A stretch of 64,000 bases of DNA from Acidobacteriota bacterium (lineage in GTDB: Bacteria; Acidobacteriota; Terriglobia; Terriglobales; Acidobacteriaceae), in assembly GCA_021779935.1 (NCBI GenBank), contig JAJXZT010000016.1, positions 62,001-126,000 of the forward strand, given 5' to 3'. Positions 1-7,294 of this stretch are shown one piece after another (within the stretch, counting starts at the first letter, position 1; each line of letters begins with the position of its first letter). The notes below the pieces were generated by a model. That model ran no database searches. It saw only the letters and a list, made by a program, of their open reading frames with translations, and was not told where the DNA came from. The position numbers and the translations under genes are program-made.

Positions 1-162
1 TACGGCCTGTTCGCGGCTTGGGTCAGAAACGGGCGTGTTGGTGGCCTTTTTGATCGTGCCAATCTCGGCGACCACGCGCACGCGACGGTTCAGCAGTTCG
101 AGCAACGTCGCGTCGATCTCATCGATTTCCGCTCGTCGCATCTCCATCCGATTGTTCGCCAT
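1..162 (-). CDS. Chorismate mutase, AroQ type (5' part, runs off window)
   Basis: Converts chorismate to prephenate, the branch point to phenylalanine and tyrosine. Only about 54 N-terminal residues are inside the window. The visible helix has the AroQ pattern: RRAEIDEID, then LLELLNRR, then VVAEIGTIKK, which places the Arg, Arg and Lys residues that bind chorismate in the E. coli enzyme at the expected spacing. Two ATGs are possible. The one at 171 has its GAGG only one base away; the one at 162 has the same GAGG ten bases upstream and is preferred. It could be a stand-alone mutase or the N-terminal domain of a bifunctional enzyme (for example a mutase-prephenate dehydratase); the cut hides this. 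Expression is probably controlled by the attenuator-like leader just upstream (201-420). Confidence 0.8.
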   Translation of the reverse strand, partial: MANNRMEMRRAEIDEIDATLLELLNRRVRVVAEIGTIKKATNTPVSDPSREQAV

Positions 163-200
163 ATCCGTCATACCTCAATACCTGTTACTGAAAGTTGCCC

Positions 201-531: not shown

Positions 532-1488
532 ATGCAGCAGTTTTTTCATATCCATGCGCTCGCAGATCATCCGTATGTATTCCTGTTCCTTGCACTGTTG
601 CTTGAGCGGATGGGATTGCCGCTGATCGTCACTCCGCTGCTGATTGCCGTTGGCGCCTGGGCTGCTCTTGGCAGCATGAATTTTTCGGCGGCGCTTGCGG
701 TCTCGCTTCTCGGCACCATGGTTGGCGATCAGGCGCTTTATGAACTTGGAGCTCGTCGCGGAACGGCCATCCTTCGTTTTCTCTGCCGCATTTCCCTTGA
801 GCCTGAGGCATGTGTGCGACGTTCGCAGGAGTCGCTGGGGAAGAACGCATTGCGCACCCTGCTGGTTGCCAAGTTCATTCCCGGCGTCGCGCACGTAGCC
901 CCCGCTGTTGCCGGCAGCACGCGCTTCGGACGAACGAAGTTTCTTCTCTGGAATACCGCCGGAACCTTCGTCTGGATGGTTGCGATGATGCTGATCGGCT
1001 ACCTGCCCGTGCGTCCCATGTCGCAAACGGACGTTGCGCGGAGCATAGGCATCTGGGCCCTTGGGTTGCTGATGGCGGGAACGCTCTTCAATATCGTTAT
1101 GAAGTGGTATCGCAAGCAGGCGTTCGTGCATGAGATTTCGCGCTCTCGCATCTCGCCCGAGGAACTGGCTGAGCGCATTGCCGCCGGAGAAGACTTCCAC
1201 ATCGTCGATCTTCGCCATCCTCTCGAGTTCGTCGTTGACCCGCGCGTACTGCCCGGAGCGATTCGCATCGCCCCCGACGAACTCAACGAGAAGAAGCAAT
1301 GGCTCACTTCGGATCGTGAGGTTGTCCTCTACTGCACTTGACCGAACGAAGCTACCAGCGCCCGGGTGGCGCAAAAGCTTCAACAGCTCGGTGTGACTCG
1401 TGTGCGTCCGCTTGCCGGAGGCTTCCAGGGCTGGCGTGACCTGCAATTGCCGCTTGACGATCGTTTTGTCGAGACGGGTTCCAGATGA
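532..1488 (+). CDS. DedA-family membrane protein fused to rhodanese; candidate selenoprotein (in-frame TGA at 1339-1341)
   Basis: Residues 1-200 are a DedA/SNARE-associated membrane domain with several hydrophobic spans and the family motif GDQALYELGARRG. Residues 205-318 are a rhodanese (sulfurtransferase) domain. The reading frame has a TGA right after the catalytic-loop Cys: VVLYC(268)-T-TGA(270)-PNEATSARVA. It then continues as a good rhodanese C-terminus (RPLAGGFQGW) to a TGA at 1486-1488. To my knowledge DedA-rhodanese fusions carry a second Cys at this place (YCxCPNE). A Cys position replaced by TGA, with a SECIS-like hairpin 21 bases later, points to selenocysteine. The alternatives are a nonsense mutation or a base error; then the product is a 269-aa truncated protein. 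No in-frame start lies upstream of 532, since a stop codon occurs at 520-522. DedA proteins are membrane lipid flippase/scramblase-type proteins; the sulfur role of the fusion is unknown. Confidence 0.8.
1348..1381 (+). promoter_or_regulatory. Bacterial SECIS-like hairpin downstream of in-frame TGA
   Basis: Outer stem GAAGCT (1348-1353) with AGCTTC (1376-1381), inner stem GCGCC (1358-1362) with GGCGC (1368-1372), five-base apical loop CGGGT (1363-1367). The loop starts 21 bases after the TGA (1339-1341), within the 16-37 base window of the bacterial SECIS consensus, and has G as its second base. The hairpin is inside coding sequence, as bacterial SECIS elements are. Confidence 0.6.
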
Positions 1489-1527
1489 ACATCCTCTCCG
1501 CGCGCGAAAGGTTACAATAAGCGCGTC

Positions 1528-1980
1528 ATGCCTCTCTACCGTGGAGACGCAACCGAACGTCGCGCCCTGAGCGCATACGTTAAGCTGATTCGCGCCAGCG
1601 AGTCGGTCCATGCTTTTGCCATGCGCGGGTTGATCGACGAGGGCCTTACTCCGACCCAGTTTTCCGTGCTGGAAGTTCTTTATCACCTCGGTCCGCTCTA
1701 TCTCTCGGATATCGCGCGAAAGGTGTTGAAGACCGGCGGTAACCTGACGATGGTTGTCAACAACCTCGTTCGCTGCGGGCTTGTTCGCCGTTCGAAAAAA
1801 GCAGAAGATCGCCGGTACGTCCTCATTGAACTTACAGCGAAAGGCAGGGAATTAATGCGGCAAGTCTTTCCACGGCACGCCGCGCAGATCGTCGAAGCCA
1901 TGGCTCGTCTGACGGCGTCTGAACAGAAACAACTGGCCGGCCTCTGTCGAAAGCTCGGAACATCACTAACCACAAAGTAA
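1528..1980 (+). CDS. MarR-family transcriptional regulator (MhqR-like)
   Basis: A 150-residue winged-helix repressor. The central part (TPTQFSVLEVLYHLGPL, then LSDIARKVLKTGGNLTMVVNNLVRCGLVRR, then DRRYVLIELTAKG) gives the recognition helix and the wing with its conserved DRR. The phrase KVLKTGGNLTMVVNNL is close to the MhqR subgroup, which senses quinones and electrophiles and often controls pirin or dioxygenase genes; a pirin gene follows 86 bases downstream. I see no obvious single redox Cys in the helix usually used. A 12-bp palindrome between the two genes could be its operator. Start at ATG 1528, with a TACAAT hexamer about 10 bases upstream that may be a -10 element. Confidence 0.88.
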   Translation: MPLYRGDATERRALSAYVKLIRASESVHAFAMRGLIDEGLTPTQFSVLEVLYHLGPLYLSDIARKVLKTGGNLTMVVNNLVRCGLVRRSKKAEDRRYVLIELTAKGRELMRQVFPRHAAQIVEAMARLTASEQKQLAGLCRKLGTSLTTK

Positions 1981-2066: not shown

Positions 2067-2768
2067 ATGATCACGGTAAGACGTTCGGAAGAGCGAGGCC
2101 ACTTCGACCATGGATGGCTCGACACGTACCACAGCTTTTCCTTTGCCAGCTACTACGACCCGAAGCACATGGGATTTCGCAGTCTTCGGGTGATTAACGA
2201 GGATAGTGTCGCACCGGGTGGTGGCTTTGGCACGCACCCGCACCGCGACATGGAGATCATTACCTACGTGTTGCAGGGTGGCCTTGCGCACAAGGACAGC
2301 ATGGGCAACGGCTCCACCATACGTCCCGGGGATGTCCAGCGCATGAGTGCCGGAACCGGAGTGCTGCACAGCGAGTTCAATCATTCGAAGGACGAAGCAG
2401 TCCATCTGCTGCAGATTTGGATCCTTCCTGACAAGGAAGGAGTTACTCCGAGTTATGAGCAGAAGTTTTTCGATGCCGAAAGCAAGCGCGGCGTTTTACG
2501 GTTGATCGCCTCCCGCGACGGACGCGACGGTTCCGTGACGATTCACCAGGATGCAGCTCTGTTCGCCTCGGTGCTCGGCAAGGGAGTCCACGTAGAGCAC
2601 GAGCTTTCCGCCGGACGCCACGCATGGCTCCAGGTGGTGCGCGGCAAGGTTGCGGCAAATGGAGTTGAACTGACCGCCGGCGATGGGGCGGCCGTGAGCG
2701 CGGAATCGAAGCTGACGGTGGAAGGCTCCGAGGATGGCTCCGAGATTCTGCTCTTCGATCTGGATTGA
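2067..2768 (+). CDS. Pirin family protein (YhhW-type)
   Basis: A bicupin of 233 residues. The N-terminal cupin shows [16 protein letters not shown] and later [12 protein letters not shown], carrying the His/Glu metal ligands of pirins; the start [26 protein letters not shown] is typical of YhhW. Some members have quercetin 2,3-dioxygenase activity in vitro; the physiological substrate is unknown. GGAGG lies seven bases before ATG 2067, so this start is chosen over the GTG-type codons upstream. Together with the MarR gene in front it looks like a small electrophile- or quinone-response unit. Confidence 0.9.
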
Positions 2769-3018
2769 TCCATTCTTGGCGGAATGTCCGGAGGGTGACC
2801 GGGCGTTCCGCTTCATTTTTTGTTCCGCATCAATAATAGGCGTGACAAATTCGAAAAGCGTGCGTCGTACAGGATGTGCGAGCCCCGCCGAGGTCGTACA
2901 ATAGAATAGTTTCACGGTGAATGAATCCTAATTAAGAGGACGAACCGTATCGCGTCACTTTGCCTGCCAGATACGAGTGCGCGACGCGGGCGGCCTTCAA
3001 TAATAAATGAGGATTGAT

Positions 3019-4128
3019 ATGCATTTGCATCGTTCGGGGAGCGGCCTGCTCTTTTCCTCTGCCCTCATTGCTGCTGCGTTGTGTTTGGGCGCGTGTAATC
3101 GCGGAGCCGACAAGACCGCCAAGGGCCCAATGCCACAAGCGTTTCCGGTCAAGGTACAGAAGGTGGAACTGAAGCCTGTCGGTGAGTTTTCCGATTACCT
3201 GGCGACGCTCAAGTCTCGAAACTCCTCCACGTTGCAACCGCAGGTTGCAGGGCAGATCACTCGGATCTTTGTAAAGTCCGGCCAAGCCGTACGCGCGGGG
3301 CAACCGTTGCTGGAAATCGATCCGCACAAACAGGAAGCGACGCTTCGCTCGCAGGAAGCCACGAGGCTCTCGAAGATTGCAACCATGCAGTTGAACAAGA
3401 AGGAATTCGAGCGGCAGGAGAAGTTGTATGCGGCTGGGGTTGTCAGCCGGCAGGCCCTTGATCAGGCGCAGAGTGCGTACGATTTTTCCAAGGCGGATGT
3501 TGCATCTTCGGCGGCCTCCGTTCGCGAGCAGCAAGTGCAGTTGCGCTACTACGACGTAAAGGCGCCCACGGATGGCGTGATCGGCGATATTCCGGTGCGT
3601 GTCGGAGATTACATCACCACTTCCACGGTCCTCACCACGCTTGACCAAAGCGGCCGGCTGGAAGCCTACATCTCGGTTCCCTCGGAGAAGGCGTCCGAGG
3701 TTCACATGGGGCTGCCCGTCGAAATCATCAGTGACAGCGGCTTGCCTCCCGTGAAGACGGCGGTGGATTTCATCTCGCCGCGCATAGACCCGGACAATCA
3801 ACTCCTGCTCATCAAGGCCAACATTCCGAATACCGGCGGCAGATTTCGTAATGACCAGGCCGTTCATGTACGTGTCGTCTGGAACCAGAACCCTCATCCG
3901 CTGATTCCGGTGACGGCAGTCTCGCGCCTGAATGGCCAGGCGTTCGCGTTCGTCGCCGAACCGGGACAGAACGGCTTTGTGGCGCACCAGCGCCTGCTGC
4001 AACTGGGCGATGTCGTCGGCAACGATTACATCGTTCTCGACGGAATCAAGCCGGGGGATACCGTGATTTTAACTGGCGTACAAATGCTGGTAGACGGAAT
4101 GCCAGTTCAGCCGCAGCCGCAGTCGTAG
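3019..4128 (+). CDS. RND efflux periplasmic adaptor (membrane fusion lipoprotein)
   Basis: AcrA/MexA-type adaptor of about 369 residues that bridges an inner-membrane RND pump to an outer-membrane channel. The N-terminus is a lipoprotein signal with lipobox LGAC at residues 23-26. The lipoyl/coiled-coil part follows (LKSRNSSTLQPQVAGQITRIFVKSGQAVRAGQPLLEID, then LDQAQSAYDFSKADV). GAGG lies six bases before ATG 3019; the earlier ATG at 3007 has no such site. The pump gene starts 16 bases after its stop. No outer-membrane factor gene is present in the operon. Confidence 0.93.
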   Translation: MHLHRSGSGLLFSSALIAAALCLGACNRGADKTAKGPMPQAFPVKVQKVELKPVGEFSDYLATLKSRNSSTLQPQVAGQITRIFVKSGQAVRAGQPLLEIDPHKQEATLRSQEATRLSKIATMQLNKKEFERQEKLYAAGVVSRQALDQAQSAYDFSKADVASSAASVREQQVQLRYYDVKAPTDGVIGDIPVRVGDYITTSTVLTTLDQSGRLEAYISVPSEKASEVHMGLPVEIISDSGLPPVKTAVDFISPRIDPDNQLLLIKANIPNTGGRFRNDQAVHVRVVWNQNPHPLIPVTAVSRLNGQAFAFVAEPGQNGFVAHQRLLQLGDVVGNDYIVLDGIKPGDTVILTGVQMLVDGMPVQPQPQS

Positions 4129-4144
4129 GCGCCGGAGGCCACCC

Positions 4145-7100
4145 ATGTTCGTAAATTTCTTTATCCGACGTCCTGTGTTCGCGACGGTTTGCGCGCTACT
4201 CATCATTCTCGCCGGCGCAATCGCCATCCCCACACTGCCGGTCGCGCAATTCCCCATCCTTGCGCCGCCGCAGGTCACAGTTAGCGCCTTCTATACCGGC
4301 GCAAACTCACAGTCTGTCGAAAGCAGCGTAACAACGCTCCTGGAACAGGCGATCAATGGTGCGGAGGGAATGCGCTACATTGCCTCCACCAGCGGCAATG
4401 ACGGCAGCAGTTCCATCACTGCCACCTTCAACCTCGATCGCAATCTCGACATTGCTGCCGTGGATGTGCAGAACCGTGCCTCCACCGCCATGGGCCGCCT
4501 GCCTGCCGAGGTGCAACAGACCGGCGTTCTCATCAACAAGAACTCCGGGTCGTTCATAATGGCCGCGGGTTTCTATGCCGAGAACAATCGCTACGACAGC
4601 CTGTTTATCAGCAACTATCTCGACATCTATGTAAAAAACGCGTTGCAGCGTGTTCCCGGCGTTGGCAATGTTGTCATTTTCGGTGAACGTAAATATGCCA
4701 TGCGGCTTTGGCTCGACCCGATGCTGCTGGCGAAGCGCAACCTTACAGCGCAAGACGTAGTGAACGCGTTGCGCGAGCAAAACGTGCAGGTCGCCGCCGG
4801 ACAAGTTGGCGAACCGCCGTCAGTGCCTGGCCAGTCCTTCCAGATCAGCGTGCGCGCCGAGGGACGGCTCAACGATCCGAAGCAGTTCGACGACATTATT
4901 CTGAAGCGTGCCCCGGATGGATCGCTCATCCGCCTGCGTGACGTGGGTCGCGCTGAACTCGGAGCCGAAAGCTACGGCACCAACCTCACCTTCAACGGCC
5001 ACGAGGCCATCGGCCTCGGTGTGATGCAGTTGTCGAATGCCAACGCGCTCGATGTCGACAAGGGCGTGCGTGAGGAGCTGGCGAAGTTGCAGGCAGACTT
5101 TCCGCCGGGACTGAAGTACGCGGTTGCCTTTGATACCACCACGGCGGTCGGCGAGTCGATCCGCGAAGTGCTCAAGACCTTGGCGGAAGCGATTCTCATC
5201 GTCATTCTCGTGATCTTTGTCTTCCTCCAGACGTGGCGAAGCACCATTATTCCGGCCATCACGATCCCGGTATCCCTGGTCGGTACATTCGCATTTATCA
5301 AACTATTTGGTTTCTCCATCAACACGCTGACCCTGTTTGGCATCACGCTTGCCACGGGGCTCGTGGTCGACGACGCCATCGTGGTGATCGAAAACGTCGA
5401 GCGCCACATACAGGAAGGGATCAAGGACGCGCGCATCGCTACGGAAGTAGCCATGTCGGAAGTGACCAGCGCCGTCATCGCGACCTCCATCGTGCTGATC
5501 GCGGTCTTCGTTCCGGTTTCGCTCTTTCCCGGCACCACGGGACGGCTCTATCAACAGTTCGCGCTGACCATCGCGTTCTCCATCGCCCTTTCCGCCTTCA
5601 ATGCGTTGACCCTGACGCCGGCTCTTTCGGCGCTCCTGTTGAAGCACATGGAGCTGCCGCACTTCTTCCTCTTCCGCGGGTTCAACGCGCTGCTGGAAAA
5701 AGGTACGTCGCTCTACACGTCGTCGCTCAAAGTGTTGGAGCGCATGCGCATTGTCGTGGTGATTCTCTTCTTCGCTGCACTTGGTACGACCTACTGGGTC
5801 TACAAGACGGTGCCCACCAGCTTTGTGCCTGATGAAGACCAGGGCTACTTTATGGTGATGATCCAGGCGCCAGAGGGTTCTTCTCTTTCTTACACGTCGA
5901 AGATCGCCGACCGAGCCGCGAAGATTCTTGGTCAAAATCCTGACATCACGGGTGTGTTTGCGGTTCCGGGATTCAGCTTCAGCGGCGCTGCCCCGAATCG
6001 CGCAATGGTATTCATCAATCTTCGGAACATGTCCGAACGCAAGGGCCCGCAGCATTCCGCTCAGGCGATTATCAATTCGGTTCGCGGTCCGCTGATGGGG
6101 ATTCCAGATGCACTCGTCATTCCGATTCTGCCGCCGCCCATCCAGGGCCTCGGTGAGTACGGCGGATTCCAGTTCGAGTTGCAACAGACCGGCTCAGGCA
6201 GTCTTGAGGATCTGGAAAACGTGATGCACACGCTTATCCAGAAAGCGAACGCGCGACCGGAACTCCAGAAGGGAAGCCTCTTCAGCAGCTTCAGTGCGCG
6301 CAACCCGCAGTTTCTTGTGGAGATTGACCGCGAAAAGGCAAAGAGCCTCGGCGTCGCATTCAGCGAGATCACTTCTGCGCTGCAGATCTACATGGGCTCG
6401 GAGTATGTGAACGACTTCGACTTCAATAACCGTTCCTATCGTGTCTACGTGCAGGCCGATAAGCAATTCCGTTCGCAGCCGCGCGATCTCAAGGAGTTCT
6501 ATGTTCGCTCGGCTAGCGGAGACATGGTGCCGCTCGATAACCTGGTGACGCTCAAGGAGACGACGAACGCCAGTATCATCAGCCACTACAACCTGTTCCG
6601 TTCGGCTGAAATCGACGGCAGCCCGGCCGCCGGCTACAGTTCCGGACAGGCGATCAGGGCTATGGAGGCCGTGGCCAAACAAAATCTGCCACAGGGCTAC
6701 TCTTATGAGTGGACGGGCTTGGCGCTGGAGGAAATTCAGTCCGGCAGCCAGACCATCTTCCTCTTCGCTCTCGGATTGCTGGTCGTCTACCTGACGCTCT
6801 CGGCGCAATATGAGAGCTTCGTGCTTCCGTTCATCATTCTGCTGGCTGTGCCCATGGCGATCCTTGGCGCCCTCGGAGCGCAGGCGGCGCGCGGTTTGCA
6901 GGACGACGTCTACTGCCAGATCGGACTCGTCATGCTCATTGGTCTGGCCAGCAAGAACGCGATTCTGATCGTCGAATTCGCCGAGCAACTCCAGGCGAAA
7001 GGGATGAAGCTGTTCGAGGCCGCCATCGAAGCTGCACGGCTCCGCTTGCGCCCCATCCTGATGACCTCCGTCGCGTTCATTCTCGGAGTTCTGCCGCTCG

Positions 7101-7294
7101 TGTTTGCCACTGGCGCCGGCTCCGCGGGACGCCACTCGGTGGGTACCACGGTTTTCGGTGGCATGATCGTCTCCACCTTCCTCAACCTGTTCATCATTCC
7201 AATCCTTTACGTGATCGTTCGTGAAATCCTGCCTGTTTCCCGTAAGGCGGAAGAGACGAATCTGGAAGAGGGACACGCCGCCGTCGAAGACTAG
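4145..7294 (+). CDS. RND multidrug efflux permease (HAE1/AcrB-like)
   Basis: A 1049-residue proton-driven inner-membrane exporter, the usual length for AcrB/MexB. It starts with the family hallmark MFVNFFIRRPVFATV and has the proton-relay pair D409-D410 in LVVDDAIVVIENVERH. A second set of membrane helices follows after about residue 860 (FLFALGLLVVYLTLSAQYES...). Periplasmic porter loops lie between. It is translated from an operon with the adaptor, and a strong terminator follows at 7318-7342. Substrate range cannot be told from sequence. Confidence 0.95.
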   Translation: MFVNFFIRRPVFATVCALLIILAGAIAIPTLPVAQFPILAPPQVTVSAFYTGANSQSVESSVTTLLEQAINGAEGMRYIASTSGNDGSSSITATFNLDRNLDIAAVDVQNRASTAMGRLPAEVQQTGVLINKNSGSFIMAAGFYAENNRYDSLFISNYLDIYVKNALQRVPGVGNVVIFGERKYAMRLWLDPMLLAKRNLTAQDVVNALREQNVQVAAGQVGEPPSVPGQSFQISVRAEGRLNDPKQFDDIILKRAPDGSLIRLRDVGRAELGAESYGTNLTFNGHEAIGLGVMQLSNANALDVDKGVREELAKLQADFPPGLKYAVAFDTTTAVGESIREVLKTLAEAILIVILVIFVFLQTWRSTIIPAITIPVSLVGTFAFIKLFGFSINTLTLFGITLATGLVVDDAIVVIENVERHIQEGIKDARIATEVAMSEVTSAVIATSIVLIAVFVPVSLFPGTTGRLYQQFALTIAFSIALSAFNALTLTPALSALLLKHMELPHFFLFRGFNALLEKGTSLYTSSLKVLERMRIVVVILFFAALGTTYWVYKTVPTSFVPDEDQGYFMVMIQAPEGSSLSYTSKIADRAAKILGQNPDITGVFAVPGFSFSGAAPNRAMVFINLRNMSERKGPQHSAQAIINSVRGPLMGIPDALVIPILPPPIQGLGEYGGFQFELQQTGSGSLEDLENVMHTLIQKANARPELQKGSLFSSFSARNPQFLVEIDREKAKSLGVAFSEITSALQIYMGSEYVNDFDFNNRSYRVYVQADKQFRSQPRDLKEFYVRSASGDMVPLDNLVTLKETTNASIISHYNLFRSAEIDGSPAAGYSSGQAIRAMEAVAKQNLPQGYSYEWTGLALEEIQSGSQTIFLFALGLLVVYLTLSAQYESFVLPFIILLAVPMAILGALGAQAARGLQDDVYCQIGLVMLIGLASKNAILIVEFAEQLQAKGMKLFEAAIEAARLRLRPILMTSVAFILGVLPLVFATGAGSAGRHSVGTTVFGGMIVSTFLNLFIIPILYVIVREILPVSRKAEETNLEEGHAAVED

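Follow-up and report, generated by a model that had tools for sequence, protein, structure and literature searches.

On comparative sequence evidence, we predict with high confidence that a gene of the window (the whole 64,000-nucleotide stretch of DNA that was analyzed) encodes a real selenoprotein, in which a DedA membrane domain is fused to a rhodanese domain with a C-x-U loop. Its frame at 532-1488 is open save for a TGA at 1339-1341 (residue 270), with the terminal TGA at 1486-1488, and both Pfam domains score above their cut-offs, which bears out the DedA-rhodanese fusion proposed in a first-pass annotation of this DNA. That annotation had also placed the TGA at the second Cys of a rhodanese CxCPNE loop, and rightly so, as a Cys or a TGA occupies this position in all 65 rows of a protein alignment (47 Sec and 18 Cys forms, the window protein included). 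The protein does continue past the TGA, for 48 residues and not the 49 originally given. The features are as follows:

532..1488, + strand: coding sequence of the predicted DedA-rhodanese selenoprotein (318 aa, Sec270), the frame being read through the internal TGA
631..1002, + strand: VTT (DedA) membrane domain, residues 34-157 (Pfam PF09335, 46 bits, cut-off 33.9)
784..813, + strand: CX8C pair, C85 and C94, invariant in 65 of 65 aligned rows
871..891, + strand: K114-F-I-P-G-V-A120, with Lys and Ala at the two-Arg positions of UndP flippases (motif mapping)
1153..1437, + strand: rhodanese domain, residues 208-302 (Pfam PF00581, 51.1 bits, cut-off 22.2)
1333..1335, + strand: C268, aligned to the rhodanese-loop Cys of 5ve3 and invariant in the 65 (motif-picked) rows
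1339..1341, + strand: TGA, predicted selenocysteine U270 in C-T-U-P-N-E (codon comparison with relatives)
1348..1381, + strand: bSECIS-like hairpin, core stem 1358-1362/1368-1372, loop CGGGU at 1363-1367 (comparative)
1528..1980, + strand: MarR-type regulator, the next gene downstream (context)
2067..2768, + strand: pirin / quercetinase-like cupin (context)

The TGA stands in the context V-V-L-Y-C-T-U-P-N-E-A-T-S-A-R. The catalytic loop of the rhodanese superfamily is CRxGxR; the window protein has CTUPNE instead and keeps the position of the loop Cys, with C268 aligning to that of the persulfide dioxygenase-rhodanese 5ve3 and U270 lying two residues on. An AlphaFold2 model of the protein (pLDDT 88.7, pTM 0.77) matches rhodanese chains of the PDB in Foldseek, the best 50 of 328 matches being mostly of the rhodanese type and including none named as a DedA protein. 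A search of PHROGs gave one weak unnamed match over the DedA part. The window protein is a divergent member of its family, with L for W at position 69, I for P at position 32 and a long branch.

Signature of the DedA half

Seven positions are invariant in the 65-row alignment (C85, C94, K114, C268, C/U270, P271 and E273), and because the rows were picked by a loose motif over C268-P271, only the invariant positions outside that motif are unbiased. The CX8C pair formed by C85 and C94 sits just before a K-F-x-P-G tip, and the predicted model suggests that the pair and the rhodanese domain share one side of the membrane. Position 120, which we equate with the second flippase arginine by spacing and motif, is S, N, A, G, Q or T and is never basic in the 65 rows. 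In a wider set, the strict pattern of Cys pair and tip is found in 119 of 123 Sec rows and in all 34 Cys rows, and these 153 pattern-matched rows agree in always having the Lys and never a basic residue at position 120; among the four misses, L091, L123 and L202 have the Cys pair and the Lys with a changed tip, and L111 is masked. Three Cys-type fusions from Burkholderiales plasmids also have the CX8C pair and the Lys, so the signature is a trait of the fusion family and is not tied to selenocysteine. E25 (E in 56 of the 65 rows) and D66 (63 of 65) are candidate positions for a criterion of DedA membership.

These residues bear on the strongest alternative, which accepts the same selenoprotein and holds that its DedA half is a flippase for undecaprenyl phosphate or another lipid, with the rhodanese as its redox or sulfur sensor. 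DedA proteins of COG0586 are indeed proposed to be UndP flippases, some of them with rhodanese fusions, and are described as carrying two Arg at the signature positions (PMC10127716). The fusion family has a Lys for the first of these and never a basic residue for the second, and the loss of the two-arginine pair, as read from the aligned sequences, argues against a role as an undecaprenyl-phosphate flippase. A free-standing DedA protein of the same genome (L001) retains R-L-L-P-V-I-R and has no Cys pair, and a third VTT gene (L003) has neither the Arg pair nor the Cys pair. The UptA model NF052604 gives the window protein 27.6 bits against a cut-off of 250. We consider the flippase alternative unlikely. 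The selenocysteine reading of the first-pass annotation has held up, and the link that it drew to lipid or solute transport stays conjectural, its lipid-carrier version weakened by a DedA half that is devoid of the two-arginine signature.

The TGA codon in relatives and the selenocysteine machinery

The source assembly (G000; 99.02% complete, 72 contigs) has all four components of the machinery that the first-pass annotation had proposed looking for, scattered over four different contigs: SelA (554.6 bits, cut-off 267.9; contig C63), SelB (381.3 bits, cut-off 242.25; C67), tRNA-Sec, the product of selC (66.6 bits, cut-off 47; C37), which ARAGORN likewise types as tRNA-SeC with the anticodon tca (UCA), and SelD (360.5 bits, cut-off 125; C49). 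The SelD frame carries a TGA of its own, in KAAG-U-ASK, which makes it a second Sec gene in the genome, and one of a well-known type. Next to this selD (L232, G000:C49:41500-48500) lie a small rhodanese of the classical type (106 aa, CRSGARS) and a frame of 340 aa that contains CPLRCPGC and may code for a radical SAM protein.

A search of the order Terriglobales gave a match in 268 of 298 genomes, and among the matches listed, at least 29 genomes (the source included) have one with a single internal TGA, which falls at the C-x-U codon in 29 of 29; L032 and L033 have their TGA at this same site. tRNA-Sec is present in 26 of these 29 genomes, and the three in which it was not detected (G187, G249 and G212) have SelA and SelB. 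SelA is found in 28 of the 29, versus 8 of the 12 Cys-form genomes searched, and the sole TGA-form genome without a SelA match (G145) has tRNA-Sec and SelB. The phylum-wide search gave a match in 55 of 297 genomes, 28 with the TGA form and 27 with the Cys form only, and when the codon was read in all 55, the homologs had TGA at C-x-U (28/28) or Cys (27/27) at exactly the codon that the first-pass annotation had pointed to. There, tRNA-Sec occurs in 25 of 28 TGA-form versus 4 of 27 Cys-form genomes (Fisher p 1.9e-8, a value that overstates independence as the genomes are related), and SelB is above its cut-off in the three TGA-form exceptions (G321, G491 and G504). Since four Cys-form genomes (G028, G337, G360 and G496) keep tRNA-Sec, selenocysteine is not always preferred. 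Two of these have a Cys-type fusion with C-N-C-P-R-E (L216 in G337, L217 in G360); in the Cys-form gene of G496 (L259), the reading frame is broken ahead of the rhodanese loop, by a real break or an assembly error, and C-T-C-P lies in a different frame.

A second DedA-rhodanese subfamily (L241, L242 and L245-L247) has a TGA at the same codon, followed by L, Q or A instead of Pro, and a similar tail, with V-P-x-x-D-x-x-x-L-P-x-F in most members. This C-T-U-L/Q/A form occurs in five genomes of the phylum set, one of which (G041) has both forms. A distant paralog match with one internal TAG was also seen (G040:C5:1917536-1918441).

Beyond the phylum, we scanned the DNA of one genome per species, across 84,980 species, for C-x-U-P-x-E-A/V, a pattern that is blind to the C-T-U-L/Q/A subfamily because it requires Pro after the Sec. 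At least 117 loci matched, in part from the same organisms as the genome set above. The rhodanese loop is present in every one of the 117, and the conserved G-G-x(4-5)-W part follows in 115, the exceptions being L093, which ends with the fetched stretch, and L187, which has a stop 19 residues on. By a VTT profile built from the rows of the order, at least 88 of the 117 are DedA-rhodanese fusions; the others comprise 15 with a short N-terminal part without DedA, nine cut by the end of a contig or stretch and five of other kinds. The fusions span at least six named phyla: Acidobacteriota (47), Pseudomonadota (22, of which 15 are beta, six gamma and one without class), Rokuibacteriota (11), Myxococcota (3), Nitrospirota (1) and Vulcanimicrobiota (1), with three in unassigned records. 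Among those not labeled as Acidobacteriota (38 fused loci), tRNA-Sec is present in 31 of 36 genomes; the tRNA search found none in G567, G585, G592, G596 and G597. Two metagenome bins titled 'Bordetella parapertussis' with a Sec fusion (L149 and L187) group with environmental bins of Burkholderiales, and their label is doubtful.

These distributions weigh against taking the TGA for a Cys codon broken by mutation or sequencing error, with the 3′ part decaying. A single base change does separate TGA from TGC or TGT, and the source genome is a draft in 72 contigs; against this, the same TGA recurs in the 29 or more genomes of the order and in the 117 or more loci of another, partly overlapping collection, and the TGA form is associated with the Sec machinery. 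Moreover, purifying selection continues past the TGA in the relatives: over eight close pairs of TGA-form relatives, with two genes each used in two pairs, pN/pS is 0.21 upstream and 0.12 downstream of the TGA. These values describe the relatives, since no homolog is close enough to the window gene to form such a pair (best identity 48-49%). The frame decay in homologs that the first-pass annotation had raised was not seen as a general feature, with frame-broken copies only at L187 and L259. We therefore regard a pseudogene or sequencing error as highly improbable.

As to ancestry, a tree of 151 rows has four state changes, with Cys nested in Sec. Its input was 155 rows, from which four identical ones were dropped, a few genes being present under two loci; since 84 came from the Sec-motif scan and the input did not include the proteobacterial Cys forms, the direction of change is only suggested. 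A replacement of Sec by Cys seems to have taken place in several lineages of Terriglobales.

The hairpin downstream of the TGA

Bacterial selenoprotein genes have a bSECIS hairpin just downstream of the TGA, with a G in its apical loop. Such a hairpin, GCGCC-CGGGU-GGCGC at 1358-1372, is found in the window both in the fold and by comparison; as the first-pass annotation had it, the loop lies 21 nt downstream of the TGA (starting at 1363) and has a G, its second base. The fold of this region alone is unremarkable. The plain minimum-free-energy fold of 1330-1410 is unexceptional (z -0.30) and was rejected as evidence for a SECIS, ranking by energy alone puts an overlapping hairpin with an 8-nt loop slightly ahead (-7.9 kcal/mol), and Rfam has no match in window 1200-1560. 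Under synonymous-codon shuffles, the z of the window gene is -0.90 for the hairpin and -2.66 for the whole fold, and a 32-base degenerate motif has a single match in the window and none in 100 shuffles. It is comparison among relatives that makes the case for the hairpin.

We surveyed the best hairpin with a loop start 12-33 nt downstream in 153 Sec and 34 Cys genes. Its median energy is -9.5 kcal/mol in the Sec versus -3.1 kcal/mol in the Cys genes, it reaches -5 kcal/mol or below in 149 of 153 versus 11 of 34, and the loop starts exactly 21 nt past the TGA in 114 of the 153 Sec genes. The mean hairpin z is -1.09 over 61 Sec rows versus 0.04 over 34 Cys rows (Mann-Whitney p 3e-8); for the 45-nt fold as a whole, the two groups show no difference in z (p 0.15). 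A 7-pair stem shows 86.9% pairing over 147 distinct Sec rows, and its covariation exceeds that of shuffles in both the number of double-changed cells (98 vs 33.1) and the covariation score (0.261 vs 0.087), neither being reached in any of 500 shuffles. Two further measures are weak, namely stem pairs changed on both sides (5 vs 3.8, reached by 96 of 500 shuffles) and further pair types (14 vs 11.3, reached by 31 of 500). Versions of the stem slid along the alignment all score lower, except for one tie on pair types, and RNAalifold recovers the inner four pairs unaided. Counted by source, this four-pair core stem forms in 115 of the 117 Sec loci from the scan, whose pattern had fixed two 5′ stem columns (22 and 23) and left their partners free. 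It forms in 52 of the 54 Sec genes that were obtained independently of the Sec motif, as opposed to 6 of 48 Cys genes; over distinct sequences, the counts are 111 of 113, 49 of 51 and 5 of 46, respectively. The stretch 1339-1400, singled out early on for a bSECIS check, thus holds a hairpin that is conserved with compensatory changes across relatives. One Cys gene (L021), whose genus (g11) also includes five TGA forms, retains the CGGGU loop and is apparently a recent change from Sec to Cys with a relic SECIS.

The covarying hairpin lies inside the 3′ part of the frame and, together with the purifying selection on that part, shows that selection in the family acts on the full-length product. 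This makes it very unlikely that the UGA is a true stop and that the functional product is a 269-aa DedA protein with a truncated rhodanese, even if some of this short product is likely made, since termination at UGA competes with Sec insertion. Least probable of all is that a special tRNA reads the UGA as Cys or some residue other than Sec: a tRNA-Sec-like tRNA-Cys with the anticodon UCA (selC*) is reported from other phyla and allo-tRNAs from Acidobacteria (PMC7609411), and against this the tRNA of the source genome is typed as tRNA-Sec, SelA and a Sec-type SelD accompany it, and UGA remains an ordinary stop here, ending the window gene itself and the pirin gene two genes downstream.

Possible function and comparison with known systems

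In the selenoprotein that we predict, ribosomes would insert Sec at the TGA at 1339 by means of SelB, tRNA-Sec and the downstream hairpin. From the positions of the motifs, we tentatively propose a mechanism that we hold to be plausible, if short of an even chance: C268 would accept sulfane sulfur (or selenium) to form a persulfide, which Sec270 would attack, releasing sulfide and forming a selenenylsulfide, and a dithiol, perhaps the invariant CX8C pair or thioredoxin, would reduce the latter again. On this view, the fusion would act as a membrane-bound reductase of persulfide or of thiosulfate/selenium, and its DedA half, with its altered tip, may transport or recruit the substrate. As the Sec lies two residues past the sulfur-accepting position, a redox role is likelier than better sulfur transfer, and the protein probably handles sulfane sulfur or selenium by redox chemistry at the membrane.

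A bolder proposal, which we consider rather doubtful, is that of a vectorial chalcogen enzyme, in which the DedA half would carry a sulfur or selenium species that the CX8C pair and the C-x-U loop would reduce or capture on arrival; thiosulfate, sulfite/selenite or an organic persulfide may be the substrate. The reason for the fusion of rhodanese to DedA has been termed unclear (PMC10127716), and such vectorial action, if true, would explain it. DedA has also been linked to selenite resistance (Ledgham 2005, as cited in PMC10127716). In two Acidobacteriota (L141:1604-3271, + strand; L175:2232-3785, - strand), the same C-x-U rhodanese is fused C-terminally to a Na+/H+ exchanger domain (PF00999, 144 and 140 bits), another membrane-transporter architecture among candidate selenoproteins. 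These sequences hint at a C-x-U rhodanese module attached to several transporters. The work of Ledgham reportedly concerns Cupriavidus metallidurans, which has a Cys-type fusion that may differ from the gene of that work.

Gene neighborhood was set aside as a weak guide to function, with the pirin gene near 6 and the MarR gene near 3 of 133 other loci. Clustering of 517 neighbors gave no partner common to more than 11 of 134 loci, in a survey that read only three neighbors in 45 loci and only two in 16. Downstream of the MarR and pirin genes, the window has a membrane-fusion protein and an AcrB-type RND pump (3007-7294), and its first 165 nucleotides (1-165, minus strand) hold the start of a frame that resembles what we take to be the N-terminus of chorismate mutase.

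Among known systems, CxU rhodanese selenoproteins are on record as 'form 3', NF041203 rhodanese_LYCAU, in a 2026 review (PMC13188914). This is the best NCBIfam match of the window protein, likewise a rhodanese with a C-x-U loop (CTU in the window); it differs in being free-standing, with a model length of 126 and no DedA domain. All 65 aligned rows match it (best E 7.2e-28), and two DedA fusions score below its cut-off of 115, with 74.4 bits for the window protein and 78.4 for a fused gammaproteobacterial protein from outside the alignment (L083), the best fused row being near 97, also below the cut-off, by our estimate; the exchanger fusion L141 has 92.9 bits (E 1.1e-26) and the free-standing L102 of Desulfosarcina 172.1. 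Other membrane-linked selenoproteins in that review (PMC13188914), namely the TsoB rhodanese/DsbD fusion-like protein (NF045694) and the YeeE/YedE thiosulfate transporter, have other membrane domains and the Sec motifs UxxxxU and GUxSG; the TsoB model matches 4 of the 65 rows weakly (best E 3.3e-4). The Cys-type fusions, annotated as 'DedA family protein/thiosulfate sulfurtransferase GlpE', share the architecture, and the three from Burkholderiales also the C-x-C-P loop, the CX8C pair and the Lys; they differ in having Cys in place of Sec and are 27-33% identical to the window protein (best 20 of 24 plasmid records). PA1209 of Pseudomonas aeruginosa is likewise described as a DedA domain plus rhodanese (PMC12893004). 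The COG0586 DedA/UptA flippases have the VTT domain in common with the window family, which is set apart from them by a Lys and a non-basic residue for the two Arg and by the CX8C pair.

DedA, VTT, SNARE and antiporter are absent from the available text of the selenoprotein review (PMC13188914), as are DedA, VTT and rhodanese from that of the deep-Sep paper (PMC12013277), and we found no report of a Sec form of the DedA-rhodanese fusion in the open-access literature, a body mostly without subscription papers and without preprints. The Sec form is apparently an undescribed class of selenium proteins and adds a widespread membrane selenoprotein, with at least 88 DedA-fused loci in at least six named phyla. 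Because the two DedA-fused proteins scored both fall below the NF041203 cut-off, such genes risk being annotated as truncated DedA. The Sec/Cys swaps within a single genus (L021 versus L022 and L024) provide natural pairs for asking what benefit Sec brings, and the DedA-rhodanese fusion gains a testable chemistry and a sequence signature that stands apart from the lipid-carrier flippases.
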